Part shown: piece after piece, positions 47,782 through 53,845 of the stretch
How the letters are laid out: each line of letters begins with the position of its first letter
How positions within the stretch are numbered: the first letter of the stretch is position 1
NCBI GenBank assembly: GCA_934728065.1
Contig: CAKVDW010000013.1
Span: forward strand, 1 to 58,192
Direction: 5' to 3'
Length of the DNA: 58,192 nt
From: an uncultured Campylobacter sp.
GTDB taxonomy: Bacteria > Campylobacterota > Campylobacteria > Campylobacterales > Campylobacteraceae
Translations under genes and position numbers: made by a program
Notes under the pieces: model-generated
What the model was told of the DNA's origin: nothing
Databases searched by the model: none
What the model saw: the letters and a program-made list of their open reading frames with translations, nothing else

Positions 47782-48231
47782 ATGCAAAGCTATAATAGAG
47801 AAGAATTTGAAGAAATCATTGTCGATATAGGCAGAGTAACTAAGGTCGTCAAAGGCGGACGCCGCTTTCGTTTCACCGCACTTGTGGTTGTGGGCAACAA
47901 AAAAGGGCTTGTAGGCATAGGCTATGGCAAGGCAAAAGAAGTGCCAGATGCCATTCGCAAGGGCGTTGATGATGCTTTCAAAAATATCATCGAGGTGAAA
48001 ACCAAAGGCTCTACCATCGCTCACGATGTTGAAGTGAAATTTAATTCTAGCCGAATTTTACTCAAACCAGCCAGCGAGGGAACGGGCGTTATCGCGGGCG
48101 GTTCAACTCGTCCTATAATGGAGCTTGCGGGCATTAAGGACATTTTGACAAAGTCCTTAGGCTCAAACAACTCCGCAAATGTCGTGCGCGCGACTATCAA
48201 GGCACTTACTATGTTAAAGGATAGACGATGA
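47782..48231 (+). CDS. rpsE: 30S ribosomal protein S5
   Basis: A 149-aa protein important for decoding fidelity. It has [20 protein letters not shown], the [15 protein letters not shown] loop and [18 protein letters not shown]. Four-base overlap with rplO. Confidence 0.97.
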
Positions 48232-48839
48232 ATTTACAAAAAGCAGCAAATTCCACACACAAAACCAAAAGAATAGGGCGCGGACAAGGTAGCGGTATGG
48301 GAAAAACGGCTACCAAAGGCGGCAAGGGACAAACCGCACGCAAGGGCTACAACGAAAAACGCGGCTTTGAGGGCGGACAACAGCCACTACAAAGGCGTTT
48401 GCCAAAGGTCGGCTTTACTTCAAAATTTGAAAAAGCCTACGCCATAAATGTCGAAAAGGTAAAAGGCATTTTAGAGCTTGCTGAAATCAGCTTTGAAAGC
48501 ATTAAAAGCGTGCATAAATTTCCAAAGTCTGTTAAAAAAATCAAACTCATCGGTACGGGCGCAAAAGAGCTTGCGAGCAAGATTAAAGACAAAAACATAA
48601 GCACCAGCACCAAATCAAACACTAAAAAACCAAAAACAACTGAAAAAACAGTTGTAAGAGAGGCAAAGGCTCAAACAAGCGAAAAATTAAGCACAGTCAA
48701 AAAGACTGAAACAACCGCAAAAAAAGCTCCAAGTGCTAGCAAAAATACGACCCCAAAAACCAGCACAAAGCCAGCGAGTAAGAGTGGAAGTTCGGTTAAA
48801 AAAACTCCAGCAAAAAAGAAAGAAAGTGAAGCTAAATGA
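48228..48839 (+). CDS. rplO: 50S ribosomal protein L15 with long basic C-terminal extension
   Basis: The conserved L15 core includes [40 protein letters not shown] and an [11 protein letters not shown] ending near residue 125. About 75 further residues are Lys/Thr/Ser/Pro/Ala-rich, ending [10 protein letters not shown]. It is 203 aa against the usual 130-150. This is the second r-protein in the operon with such a tail. The end overlaps the secY start. Confidence 0.95.
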
Positions 48840-50140: not shown

Positions 50141-50246
50141 TACAAAATCATTTGTTTTGTATGAGAGTTTATTTGACAGTGCAACACTTTAAATTCAGCA
50201 AAAGCAAGAAAGCTTATTTAAAGCTATCTTAACAAGATAAAAGCAT

Positions 50247-51572
50247 TTAAGACTGTGTGGATTTGTCATCATTTCCACTAAGCATTTTCTCCATAATCTT
50301 AAAGAATTTCGCACTCTCTACTTCCATTTGCTTAAATGAATGAACGATTTCTTCAATGCTCTTATTATCTTTAATGTTTTGTAAGCCCTCAACAGCCAAC
50401 TTATGAATGTTGTTATGAGTGGATTTTACTTCATTGTAAATGGGCGATTTGGCGTATTTTATCTTGCCACTATCCTCAAACCACTTGGTAAAATTACACG
50501 CATTAAGCTCTATAACTTCGCCACCGTCTTTTTTGGTCGCATTTTTATAGGTGTCATCTTTAAAGATAATATGATCCACCATAAAGAGATTTCCCGTGAT
50601 TCGCATAGCGATTTTGGATAAATTTGCATCAATGCTTTGTGTGGTATTTGTAAGTTCATTAAGCATTTGAGCGAAGTTGCCTATGCTATTATTTACTGTT
50701 TCCATTTTATTTGACATATCTTGAGAATTTATGCTGATACTTCCACTATTTTCTTGTAAGATAGAAATATTAGTGCGAATTTCATCAGTTGCTTTTTGTG
50801 TTTTTTCAGCAAGCATCCTCACCTCATCAGCCACCACAGCAAAGCCTCTACCATATTCGCCCGCACGAGCTGCTTCAATGGCAGCATTAAGAGCGAGTAA
50901 GTTTGTTTGAGCTGATATGTCATTAATCAAATTAACAATAGAGCTAATGTCATTGCTTTGTCTGGCAAGATTATCACAAGCTTGCTGGTTAGACTCTATA
51001 AGCTCATTTAGCTCTTCAAAGCTATGCAAGACATCTTGGGTTTGACCTGAGTAAGAAGCTGCCTCTTTGCTAGTGCTTGCAATTTGCGTAACAATTTGAC
51101 CAAGCGCTTGTGTGGAGTCCGTAAAGCTATTTTGCAAATATATAAGCTGGGATTTATTATCATCAATTTCTCCAAGAGTAGCCGATAAATACTCTTTTTG
51201 TTGCAAAGATTTATTTTCATAAATGGCATCAATGGACTTGTTAATTTGCGCGCAAACATGAGAAATGTTAGAGTAAAAGCCCTCTGTTAAAATTTTGCGT
51301 TTAATCTCACTGCCTGTGGCGTAGTAAAATGCTGTATTTACTTCAATGGAAAAGGTTTCAATTTGGTCTATGAGTTTATTTATACCTCTTGCGATATTGT
51401 CAATGTTATGCGTGCCTAGATGAGTAGCCCTTGCATTAAAATCACCTGTATTGAGCGTGTTTATATATTTTAACACATCTGAGATTTTAGAATTTAAAGT
51501 ATTTATCTTTGTATAAAAGACAAATGCTAACACCGAACTTAACACAAATAACACAAAAAATACAACACTCAT
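50247..51572 (-). CDS. Methyl-accepting chemotaxis transducer with CZB domain
   Basis: A 441-aa signal transducer with one N-terminal membrane helix (about 2-20) and no large periplasmic sensor. A HAMP-like segment (25-75) and the MCP signalling hairpin follow, with tip [20 protein letters not shown]. The C-terminal region has [19 protein letters not shown] and [12 protein letters not shown], which match the zinc-binding CZB pattern (His, Cys, His). The PAS gene just upstream suggests a CetA/CetB-like energy or redox taxis pair. ATG 51572 with AAGGAG is preferred to a GTG three bases earlier. Confidence 0.85.
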
Positions 51573-51605
51573 CACCTGCTCCTTAAACTCAGTTAGATTA
51601 AATTT

Positions 51606-52136
51606 TTATTTTACCGCACATACCTCGCTAAAGCACATACCAGCTACCTGAAGTCCTAGCATTGCTTCTGCAAAAGTTGTTTTATATGCGCCAAAATATT
51701 CTTGTATATACGCTATGCCTTCATTTATATCTTTAGCTTCTATTTGTTTTAATTTAGGGTAGAGTTCTTTTACAAAGTTTAGTCCGTTTTCACTCGGACA
51801 TCTTCGCACAGAATTATACGCTACAATTTGTCCATTTGCCGAAGAAGATGGGCAAACATTAGCAAATACCCAATAATATGAGCCATCTTTTGCCATATTT
51901 TTCACATAGGCATTGACTTCTTTGCCTTGAGCTAGTGTATCCCAAAGGTATTTAAAGATGGTGCGCGGCATATCAGGGTGTCGCACGATAGAGTGAGGCT
52001 TGCCGAGCAATTCCCTTTCTGCATAGCCACTAATAGCGACAAATTCATCATTACAATACAAAATTTTGCCCTTAGTGTCCGTCTTGCTTACCAAAAAGTT
52101 GCTTACTTTTCGCTCTATTTGATTTGGTATCGGCAT
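51606..52136 (-). CDS. PAS-domain signalling protein (Aer/CetB-like)
   Basis: A 176-aa cytoplasmic protein with one PAS domain (about 15-120). It shows ILYCNDEFVAISGYAERELL, GKPHSIVRHPDMPRTIFKYL and KDGSYYWVFANVCP, as in Aer and Campylobacter CetB, which bind FAD. No output domain is present, so it must act through a partner, most likely the transducer gene 34 bases downstream. AAGGAG precedes the ATG. Confidence 0.87.
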   Translation of the reverse strand: MPIPNQIERKVSNFLVSKTDTKGKILYCNDEFVAISGYAERELLGKPHSIVRHPDMPRTIFKYLWDTLAQGKEVNAYVKNMAKDGSYYWVFANVCPSSSANGQIVAYNSVRRCPSENGLNFVKELYPKLKQIEAKDINEGIAYIQEYFGAYKTTFAEAMLGLQVAGMCFSEVCAVK

Positions 52137-52185
52137 ATTCGCTCCTTACAAGAAGATTAAGGATTTTGTCCTTGAAATTTTATAT

Positions 52186-52191
52186 ATTATA
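52186..52191 (-). promoter_or_regulatory. -10 element for the PAS/transducer operon
   Basis: Minus-strand TATAAT in GTATTATAATATA, 50 bases before the PAS gene. Confidence 0.5.
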
Positions 52192-52272
52192 ATACGATTT
52201 TTATTTATTTTTGCTTAAAGAAATATTTTTTAAGAAAATGAAAAATTTAATAAATCTTAAGTTTAAATCTTT

Positions 52273-52278
52273 TATAAT
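52273..52278 (+). promoter_or_regulatory. -10 element for the double-glycine exported protein
   Basis: TATAAT in CTTTTATAATGCC, 38 bases before the start codon; divergent from the PAS gene promoter. Confidence 0.6.
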
Positions 52279-52315
52279 GCCTAAACACAAGTTTTATTTT
52301 TGAAAAGGATACAAA

Positions 52316-52825
52316 ATGAAAAAGCTATTTTTCTTACTCTTTGGTTTGTTTTTGAGTTTAAATTTAAGCTATGCTAGTGATTTAATCTCTAAAGCTTCTA
52401 ATGGAGTTTTAAATGAAAACTCATTAGGTGTTAAAAAGCTTAGCGATGAGGAGATGAGACAGGTTAAGGGTGGGTATTTTAGACTACCTTATCTTGATAC
52501 ATCCACAAGAGATTATTGGCTCATTACTGATGATTTTTACGCCAAATGGAATAATGATTATATAATGCCAACTGATGGAGTGCTTAAAGTTGCAAAAGAA
52601 ATGGGTTTTAGTGGGCAGTATGTGATTATCGTTGGTTATAAGGATACAAATAGATTTGCAATGTATAGATTTGCATTTAGAGCTTATGATACAAACAATA
52701 GAGACTATGTGAGCAACCCTTTCAGAGAAGATAGAATGAATAGACCAGAAATAAATAAATACATACAAAGCAAATTAGATGCTTTTGAAAAATACGCAAG
52801 AAGCGATTATGCTTATAGATTCTAA
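52316..52825 (+). CDS. Sec-exported protein with double-glycine leader-like motif
   Basis: A 169-aa protein. Residues 1-20 are a classic Sec signal peptide (KK, hydrophobic core, SYA cleavage site). Residues 21-53 then read like a bacteriocin-type leader: KKLSDEEMRQVKGG ends in Gly52-Gly53. The remainder (54-169) is rich in Tyr, Asp, Arg and Phe, has no Cys, and contains a short VIIVGY strand. Double-glycine leaders are normally cut by ABC transporters with a C39 peptidase domain; none is visible nearby. The family is not recognised. It is AT-rich and could be acquired. Good AAAAGGAT start. Confidence 0.8.
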   Translation: MKKLFFLLFGLFLSLNLSYASDLISKASNGVLNENSLGVKKLSDEEMRQVKGGYFRLPYLDTSTRDYWLITDDFYAKWNNDYIMPTDGVLKVAKEMGFSGQYVIIVGYKDTNRFAMYRFAFRAYDTNNRDYVSNPFREDRMNRPEINKYIQSKLDAFEKYARSDYAYRF

Positions 52826-52829
52826 TTTG

Positions 52830-52835
52830 GTATAA
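52830..52835 (+). promoter_or_regulatory. -10 element for the 323-aa gene
   Basis: TATAAT in TTGGTATAATTTTTGC, right after the previous stop and 44 bases before the next start. Confidence 0.6.
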
Positions 52836-52840
52836 TTTTT

Positions 52841-52871
52841 GCTTACTCTTTGCAAAAAAACAAAGGGTAAG
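52841..52871 (+). promoter_or_regulatory. Leader hairpin covering the ribosome-binding site
   Basis: CTTACTCTTTG (52841-52851) pairs with CAAAGGGTAAG (52861-52871), 11 bp including one G-U pair, with an A-rich loop. The right arm contains the AAAGGG ribosome-binding site, and the ATG follows two bases later. Confidence 0.6.
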
Positions 52872-52873
52872 CG

Positions 52874-53845
52874 ATGATGTATAATGTAAGACTTAATGGT
52901 TTTAACGCAAACACAGCCTTTAGTATAGAGAATAATTGTTTTGTTTCAGTAGATAATTCTGATTATTTAGACTATCAGTTTGCTAAAATACTTGAAAAGC
53001 AAAATACAAATGAAATAAGCAGAGAAAGCTTTGATGAGGTGTTTGCAAAAAATAGTAATTTTTATGTAAGCAAACAAATAGCTAACGCCCTTGCTAATCT
53101 TAAAGACACAAATGGCAATCAGGTTGATTTTAATAATTTAAGCAGTGATGAACAAGCTTTGGTTATCTTATTCCTTACAGGACCATTTGAATCATACGCC
53201 CACTATGGCACTAGAGCGAGTATAAGTGATGTGCAAATTGATTTAAGTCAAGGCTTTTATGTGCAAGCAAACATTCACACCATAGATGGACAAGTATTTA
53301 GTTCCGCAGCCAAATACGCTCCTAAATCAGCTGAGTATGTTGAAAAATATGATACTGCATGTTCTAAAATACCCCTTGCAGATTTTGATAGATATTATAA
53401 AATTTCTTTTTCTAAAGCTGGAAATTTAAGCACAGATGAAAGAGTAAAGCTTTTAGATGAAATAGAAAATTCTAATCTTAAGGATTTAGATGATTTTGAA
53501 GGAGATATTGAGATAACATTTTATAGTTATGCTTATTTTGGTGCTTCGGAAAAAATTTACGGTGGTGGCTTTCCACTTTACACATCCACAAACATCAAAC
53601 TCGACATAAACAAAGCAAGTGAAGCGTTAAAGAATTTACCTAAAGATGAAGAGCTTGAATTTGAAACTGCAACTAAAACCTTTTTAGATAATTTTTGGGA
53701 CAAATTTAAAGCTCAAATTTATGAAGCAACTCTTATATCTAAACAAAAACAAGAACTTAATCATATTTCAGGCAACAACGATAATAAAAAAGAACAAAAA
53801 CCTTTAAGCCCTTTAACTTTTTTACTTTCAAATGAAGAGCTTTAA
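52874..53845 (+). CDS. Hypothetical soluble protein next to the double-glycine protein
   Basis: A 323-aa protein without signal peptide or membrane segment. It is acidic and Asn/Asp/Ser/Tyr-rich. Visible features are an N-terminal region with repeated aromatic residues, a central SSDEQALVILFLTGPFESYA helix, DFEGDIEITFYSYAYFG strands, and a Lys/Asn-rich tail ending LTFLLSNEEL. The family is not recognised. It has its own promoter and a hairpin over its ribosome-binding site, so it is probably regulated separately from its neighbour. Confidence 0.75.
   Translation: MMYNVRLNGFNANTAFSIENNCFVSVDNSDYLDYQFAKILEKQNTNEISRESFDEVFAKNSNFYVSKQIANALANLKDTNGNQVDFNNLSSDEQALVILFLTGPFESYAHYGTRASISDVQIDLSQGFYVQANIHTIDGQVFSSAAKYAPKSAEYVEKYDTACSKIPLADFDRYYKISFSKAGNLSTDERVKLLDEIENSNLKDLDDFEGDIEITFYSYAYFGASEKIYGGGFPLYTSTNIKLDINKASEALKNLPKDEELEFETATKTFLDNFWDKFKAQIYEATLISKQKQELNHISGNNDNKKEQKPLSPLTFLLSNEEL

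Follow-up and report, generated by a model that had tools for sequence, protein, structure and literature searches.

The window analysed here is a stretch of 58,192 nucleotides from an uncultured Campylobacter sp. (contig CAKVDW010000013.1 of assembly GCA_934728065.1, positions 1 to 58,192 of the forward strand), and it contains a gene for a small precursor protein in which a Sec signal is followed by a double-glycine (Gly-Gly, GG) leader, together with a partner gene immediately downstream. The precursor is one of a large, unnamed family across Campylobacter and Helicobacter relatives in which the leaders are constant and the cargo is exchanged. The features of the locus on which the analysis turns are as follows.

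52316..52825, plus strand: precursor gene, 169 amino acids, made up of Sec signal, double-glycine leader and core, from translation of the open reading frame (ORF) and protein searches
52316..52375, plus strand: codons 1-20, Sec signal peptide, with a site of the signal peptidase I type predicted after Ala20
52376..52474, plus strand: codons 21-53, propeptide ending in LSDEEMRQVKGG, with a predicted C39 cut after Gly53
52475..52822, plus strand: codons 54-169, core (cargo) ending in RF, which matches no Pfam family and shares its class with database proteins P0002-P0006
52839..52874, plus strand: RNA hairpin in the precursor-partner interval, with the 3' arm over the partner's likely ribosome-binding site
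52874..53845, plus strand: partner gene, 323 amino acids, in the position of a cognate partner and of no known family

When the precursor sequence is read, residues 1-20 are hydrophobic and Ser-Tyr-Ala precedes Ser21. Residues 42-53, LSDEEMRQVKGG, form a double-glycine leader motif, since they fit the pattern given as LSX2ELX2IXGG in the available text of a published description (PMC3897388), with Met for Leu and Val for Ile. The NCBIfam model bacteriocin_sig aligns with residues 40-53 at 13.2 bits, below its 15.7-bit cut-off. The 116-residue core is rich in Tyr (12.1%), Asp (10.3%) and Arg (9.5%), compared to 3.1%, 4.9% and 3.5% in window ORFs of at least 200 amino acids; a Pfam scan assigned it to no family, and its structure model was of low confidence and had no match in the PDB. 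The earlier note had described a Sec signal and a double-glycine leader in one protein, ahead of a Tyr/Asp/Arg-rich remainder of 116 residues with no known domain; both parts of this description are borne out, the first by the motif fit, the near-cut-off bacteriocin_sig match and the conservation described below, the second by the composition and the Pfam scan. A DNA pattern derived from the window's own leader matched once in the 58-kb window, with 0.00 matches expected in shuffles, a single match that shows only the absence of a second copy.

Protein searches returned 21 and then 58 database proteins that have this leader in common, and all of these also carry a Sec signal except P0015 and P0058, which are cut at the N-terminus. 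The window's core class was found in only five other database proteins at E 0.01, so the leader, kept in 58, is not a product of chance. Gly or Ala at position -2 plus Gly at -1 is found in 56 of the 58, with Ala-Gly replacing Gly-Gly in five, and R[YF] occurs in the final six residues of 41 of the 46 proteins of at least 140 residues. A leader model matched 21 of 398 Campylobacterales genomes, with up to 14 matches per genome. The loci fetched from these genomes yielded 73 leader ORFs, of which one with an incomplete leader match was dropped; of the 72 leaders with complete ends, used for the leader and partner counts, one is the window's own and the other 71 come from 20 genomes, where some lie in broken genes. 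In this set Leu at -12 and GG are invariant (72/72), Val or Ile at -4 is present in 71 and Glu at -8 in 64; when both leader sets are pooled, Leu at -12 is found in 130 of 130 and Gly at -1 in 129 of 130. Because the 72 leaders came from a model that contains GG, the search was repeated with the last 17 leader columns masked in the model, and GG stood at the expected place in 70 of 74 domain matches. Three of the four non-GG matches fall inside the cores of leader-bearing ORFs, and the fourth, L111|467, has a longer leader. All 47 family precursors whose N-terminus is complete have a hydrophobic stretch there. Searches of openly licensed literature turned up no description of this leader family.

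The cargo behind the leader behaves quite differently. Among 53 of the 72 precursors, those with a complete leader and a core of 40-200 amino acids, 111 within-genome pairs had a median identity of 78.1% over the last 32 leader residues, while the median for their cores was 25.5%, compared to 21.5% for shuffled cores. By BLAST at E 0.001, the cores from the fetched loci form two large clusters and 14 others, 16 in all. The family combines a constant trafficking end with variable cargo. The same leader also stands before short cores of 25-49 residues, some of them Lys/Arg-rich, in microcin-like members at L111, L112, L098, L084, L100 and L114, and no Cj0814-like partner (see below) lies beside these.

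Analysis of the loci in relatives also revealed candidate export machinery. A standalone C39 peptidase lies within ~4.5 kb of a leader gene in 16 of the 21 leader genomes, and an outer-membrane barrel accompanies it in 14 of those 16. The C39 set consists of 16 matches at E < 1e-50, after L079, two pieces at L080 and one chance match were dropped. The Cys, His and Asp motifs of the linked peptidases are intact, and 14 of the 16 have a Sec-like N-terminal signal. In the one relative scanned, the C39 protein (L067) matches PF03412 at 2.4e-19, over the cut-off, and has no ATP-binding cassette (ABC) domain; its best NCBIfam model is FapD, at 56.9 bits of a 330-bit cut-off, so it is a C39 protein to which the FapD identity does not extend. 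For the barrel, a protein of 284 amino acids including its signal, a predicted structure has FapF as its best structural match, with 12 strands, residues 19-284 aligning with FapF 88-406; the sequence profile by itself reached E 0.025. Strand 1 begins at residue 33, and the model therefore leaves no room for the periplasmic coiled coil found at the N-terminus of FapF. The relatives would thus have two elements of a Fap-type system, a periplasmic C39 peptidase and, as predicted, an outer-membrane channel of the FapF fold, and would lack a third, the coiled coil. The loci also differ from an arrangement in which a linked ABC exporter with a C39 domain serves a Sec-less precursor, in that the linked C39 is standalone and Sec-exported.

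These findings support the suggestion in the earlier note that maturation takes place in or beyond the periplasm, because a Sec-signalled C39 peptidase and, in most cases, a FapF-like barrel lie near the precursor in relatives; its alternative, a repurposed motif, is now unlikely. It had also named homologues lacking GG as the observation that would count against it, and the blind search found GG kept in nearly all matches. Beyond what it described are the multi-copy family with swapped cores, the partner gene that accompanies most long cores, and the presence of the whole unit on Campylobacter plasmids.

Standalone C39 genes also adjoin Asn/Gln-rich proteins at L040, L043, L045 and L054, which are possibly true Fap-type operons of Campylobacterales. 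Near a precursor cassette in another genome (G323, L064:4137-8438), a Cas9-like ORF of 1015 amino acids is followed by ORFs that look Cas1- and Cas2-like by eye.

A same-strand partner of one family follows the precursor in 46 of 54 cases with a core of at least 80 residues and in three of 12 with a core below 60, with a median gap of 40 bases; five of the 72 precursors were left out for short downstream sequence, and one 77-residue core fell between the bins. This main partner family corresponds to the NCBIfam ‘Cj0814 family flagellar-dependent secreted protein’ (NF046095). Two of four scanned partners exceeded its 80-bit cut-off (L075 at 254.6 and L077 at 98.5) and two fell under it (L083 at 77.5 and L082 at 34.4), and matches over the cut-off occur in 36 of 398 genomes. 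The cores and partners of this family are co-inherited: their resemblance is correlated over 47 pairs (Mantel r 0.684, 0/2000 permutations), and the correlation is still 0.61 (0/2000) after leader resemblance is removed, the leader-partner correlation being 0.475. In one locus with five paralogues, 62-98% of the partner alignment's first 160 columns are invariant, compared to 10-48% of those that follow. At L088:1101-2396, a single ORF of 431 amino acids fuses a precursor, leader and core, to a partner-like C-terminus.

The partner family also occurs in arrays, and in 33 of 377 genomes it is present where the leader is not. At L162:6116-6331 and L170:5287-5502, in loci that we take to be jejuni-like from their gene order, a 71-residue C39 remnant lies beside a Cj0814-family gene, which suggests that orphan genes of this type are relics of the leader/C39 system.

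In the window itself, precursor and partner are separated by 48 bases. The fold of 52823-52890 reaches -20.5 kcal/mol (z -5.3), with none of 200 shuffles equally stable, and the hairpin may regulate the partner. The only homologue of the window's partner among the 21 leader genomes is at G292, with 39% identity. In a search of 26,309 frames from 193 partly overlapping loci, the top match of the window's core-class model was the frame that precedes this homologue, at E 0.033. This apparent remnant, a weak match by itself and telling by its position, gives the window's core-partner pair one weak second occurrence.

A block in the DNA upstream resembles Helicobacter labetoulli.

50200..52457, strand not assigned: block containing a methyl-accepting chemotaxis protein (MCP), a PAS protein, the upstream region and leader codons 1 to ~48, with 93.4% DNA identity to H. 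labetoulli
50247-51575, minus strand: MCP
51606-52136, minus strand: PAS protein

The identity to H. labetoulli stops inside the window's leader, at about codon 48. Ribosomal and secY stretches of the window are 69-70% identical to those of H. labetoulli and 75-77% identical to those of the nearest scored genomes (48 of 372 genomes went unscored), so H. labetoulli is not the host, which by its gene order stands closer to Campylobacter. Behind the leader, in which the identity stops, core and partner have been exchanged. The corresponding H. labetoulli frame has no start codon at the window's place, and its core soon leaves its class. In the same genome, a receptor-like N-terminus (by eye) is joined to the C-terminal half of a C39 protein (L003:1363-2085). 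In the window, the chemoreceptor block (50247-52136, minus strand) encodes an MCP with no recognised sensor domain and a weak match to the zinc-binding CZB domain, and the pairing of MCP and PAS proteins presumably recalls the CetA/CetB energy-taxis pair. Upstream, at 48228-48839, an ORF resembling ribosomal protein L15 is extended at its C-terminus by a long stretch rich in Lys, Thr and Ser (~residues 125-203).

The system is also carried by plasmids. A C39 match of this type was found in 52 plasmid records (47 Campylobacter, three Acinetobacter and two Neisseria), 43 of which reach at least 90% identity. Precursors turned up in Campylobacter records alone, 24 with one query and 42 with another. 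Campylobacter coli pC3-24 combines a relaxase gene, barrel and C39 with one precursor and two partners; C. jejuni huA17 has the first three of these and, in the stretch read, three partner-precursor pairs; and C. upsaliensis plasmid 2 contains two barrel-C39 copies. On C. jejuni pSKBC5-2 (10.4 kb), barrel and C39 are joined by three precursors (the annotation calls two of these ‘bacteriocin’), two partners and another partner-like ORF. In two plasmids of ~7 kb, C. volucris p9726 (7,145 bp) and C. jejuni p4549-2 (7,259 bp), replication, relaxase and mobC genes are accompanied by barrel, C39, partner and precursor, and no further ATG-started ORF of at least 60 amino acids is present; MOB-suite types both as non-mobilizable despite the relaxase and mobC annotation. 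The minimal unit is therefore one of four genes: barrel, C39, partner and precursor.

Taken together, the window's precursor is best explained as a two-leader secreted polymorphic protein, a reading we regard as probable. The Sec signal would carry the precursor over the inner membrane by the established Sec export pathway and would be removed after Ala20. In the periplasm, a FapD/FilB-type C39 peptidase that stands alone and is itself exported by Sec would then recognise L-12, E-8, M-7, V-4 and GG and cut after Gly53, and the 116-residue core would exit via a 12-strand FapF-like outer-membrane channel. Judged from the sequences, this path from Sec through C39 to the channel is highly likely. 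The core would be one of many interchangeable cargoes behind one leader, each encoded with its own cognate partner. Among the toxin, signal and surface protein named as options in the earlier note, a bacteriocin-like toxin, with the partner as its immunity protein or inhibitor, is the role favoured for it, because of the variable cargo, cognate partners, orphan partners and minimal plasmid units, and we consider this part roughly evenly balanced.

Several observations weigh against this interpretation. Neither a C39 peptidase nor a FapF-like barrel was found among the ORFs of the 58-kb window, so the statement in the earlier note that no transporter is nearby holds for the window, if not for the relatives in which both are linked to the precursor, and machinery for the window's own precursor, presumably elsewhere in its host, is assumed. 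In addition, a C39 match is missing from two of the 21 leader genomes, and a barrel was not found in G329 and G370 at E 0.001. In H. labetoulli, whose draft assembly yielded no barrel and has a truncated C39, the precursor and its machinery seem to have degenerated in parallel. The scanned cores match no toxin family, the window's partner has no detectable kinship to NF046095, and the name that NCBI gives that family, ‘flagellar-dependent secreted’, ill suits a simple immunity protein. Finally, in the available text of their report, the closest analogues, the Neisseria Naps, failed to inhibit competitors (PMC11798529).

The same pathway could serve another job, in which the cores, like Fap subunits, would act at the surface, in biofilm or in adhesion, and their swapping would amount to antigenic or ligand variation. 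The channel is nearest to FapF, the peptidase's best NCBIfam match is FapD, if below cut-off, the window's core is Tyr-rich, and the cargo of FapF and FapD is, in the part of the Fap report available, a fibril protein (PMC5557850). However, cores that differ almost wholly within one genome and carry cognate partners are less expected of such proteins, and four-gene units on 7-kb plasmids suit bacteriocin plasmids better than a matrix; this explanation is possible if on the whole unlikely. Somewhat less likely still is a two-part effector that meets outside the cell, its core leaving by Sec, C39 and the FapF-like channel and its Cj0814-family partner by the flagellar export apparatus. The partners' match to the family of that name is consistent with such a route, as are the orphan partner genes without precursors and the N-termini of the partners, of which just one in 50 is hydrophobic and whose first 60 residues are rich in Asn (12.4%) and Ser (12.0%) compared to the remainder (7.9% and 8.3%). 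The name is NCBI's own, though, the literature text available mentions Cj0814 as a hypothetical protein in a table, and the window's partner lies outside the family. An extension of this idea, in which plasmid-borne interbacterial weapons of Campylobacter and Helicobacter share a Sec-C39-FapF tag for interchangeable cargo and their cognate partners leave by the flagellum, each half of the product thus having an export machine of its own, is speculative and we think it unlikely.

Two further alternatives concern the leader itself. If the GG segment were uncut and served as a propeptide, chaperone-binding or channel-targeting signal, the mature protein would start at residue 21; Fap proteins are indeed reported to have no canonical C39 site and the target of FapD is unclear, in the text available (PMC5557850). 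The conserved C39 recognition positions, including the -2 and -1 residues kept in 56 of the 58 database proteins, and the apparently active C39 peptidase adjoining the precursor in relatives make this very improbable. If instead an ordinary cytoplasmic C39-ABC exporter were at work, the Sec-like stretch would in truth belong to a long GG leader; many of the 398 genomes do have C39 matches in frames of ~700 amino acids, about as long as ABC exporters. Yet no such frame was seen in the mapped loci, the scanned C39 protein lacks an ABC domain, and the signals on 14 of 16 C39 proteins and the hydrophobic N-termini of all 47 complete precursors leave this explanation scarcely credible.

A two-leader secreted polymorphic protein would have consequences for related systems. 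The substrate of the periplasmic C39 peptidase was left open in the Fap work, and the route of GG peptides to the periplasm was only suggested for the Naps, in the parts of those reports available (PMC5557850; PMC11798529); two-leader precursors whose genes lie with those for a Sec-exported C39 and a FapF-like channel open both questions to direct test, and the plasmids of ~7 kb offer minimal systems ready for use. Should the cargo prove bacteriocin-like, common gut species of Campylobacter would carry on their plasmids a competition system that has gone unrecognised. If the speculative reading of weapons with a flagellum-exported partner were true, ‘hypothetical proteins’ would hide a whole class of them and reveal what periplasmic C39 peptidases cleave.

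Classical GG bacteriocins have no Sec signal, and the C39 domain of their ABC exporter removes the leader in the cytoplasm. Like these and the class II microcins, the family described here has the LSX2ELX2IXGG motif, and some members have cores below 60 residues, but its precursors carry a Sec signal and its C39 is standalone. Polymorphic toxin systems have a constant export end, variable cargo, an adjacent cognate partner and orphan partners; the leader family shares these features, and differs in that its proteins are small, with a predicted removable leader and no recognised toxin domain. Some barrels bear the automatic database label ‘HmcD domain protein’ and so share a name with HmcD, which is linked with haemocin.

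The closest parallels are with two systems described in reports of which part was available. In Pseudomonas Fap, FapD is a Sec-exported periplasmic C39 peptidase required for secretion, and it is paired with a 12-strand outer-membrane channel of the fold predicted here (PMC5557850). In contrast to Fap, whose proteins lack a canonical C39 site in that text, these precursors have one after the Sec signal; the relatives' channel is predicted to have no counterpart of FapF's first ~87 residues, and the cargo is swapped, with cognate partners. The Neisseria nap island likewise combines a C39 peptidase (NapP), a FapF homologue (NapF) and GG peptides (NapA-C), with periplasmic cleavage proposed (PMC11798529). 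The Naps are cationic peptides of 16-36 residues, whereas most cores here have at least 80, and the holin-like NapH is suggested as their possible carrier over the inner membrane (PMC11798529), whereas the precursors here carry their own Sec signal. The present family joins a Sec signal to a canonical GG leader within a single chain, a combination that the available text of the Fap and nap reports describes for neither system.
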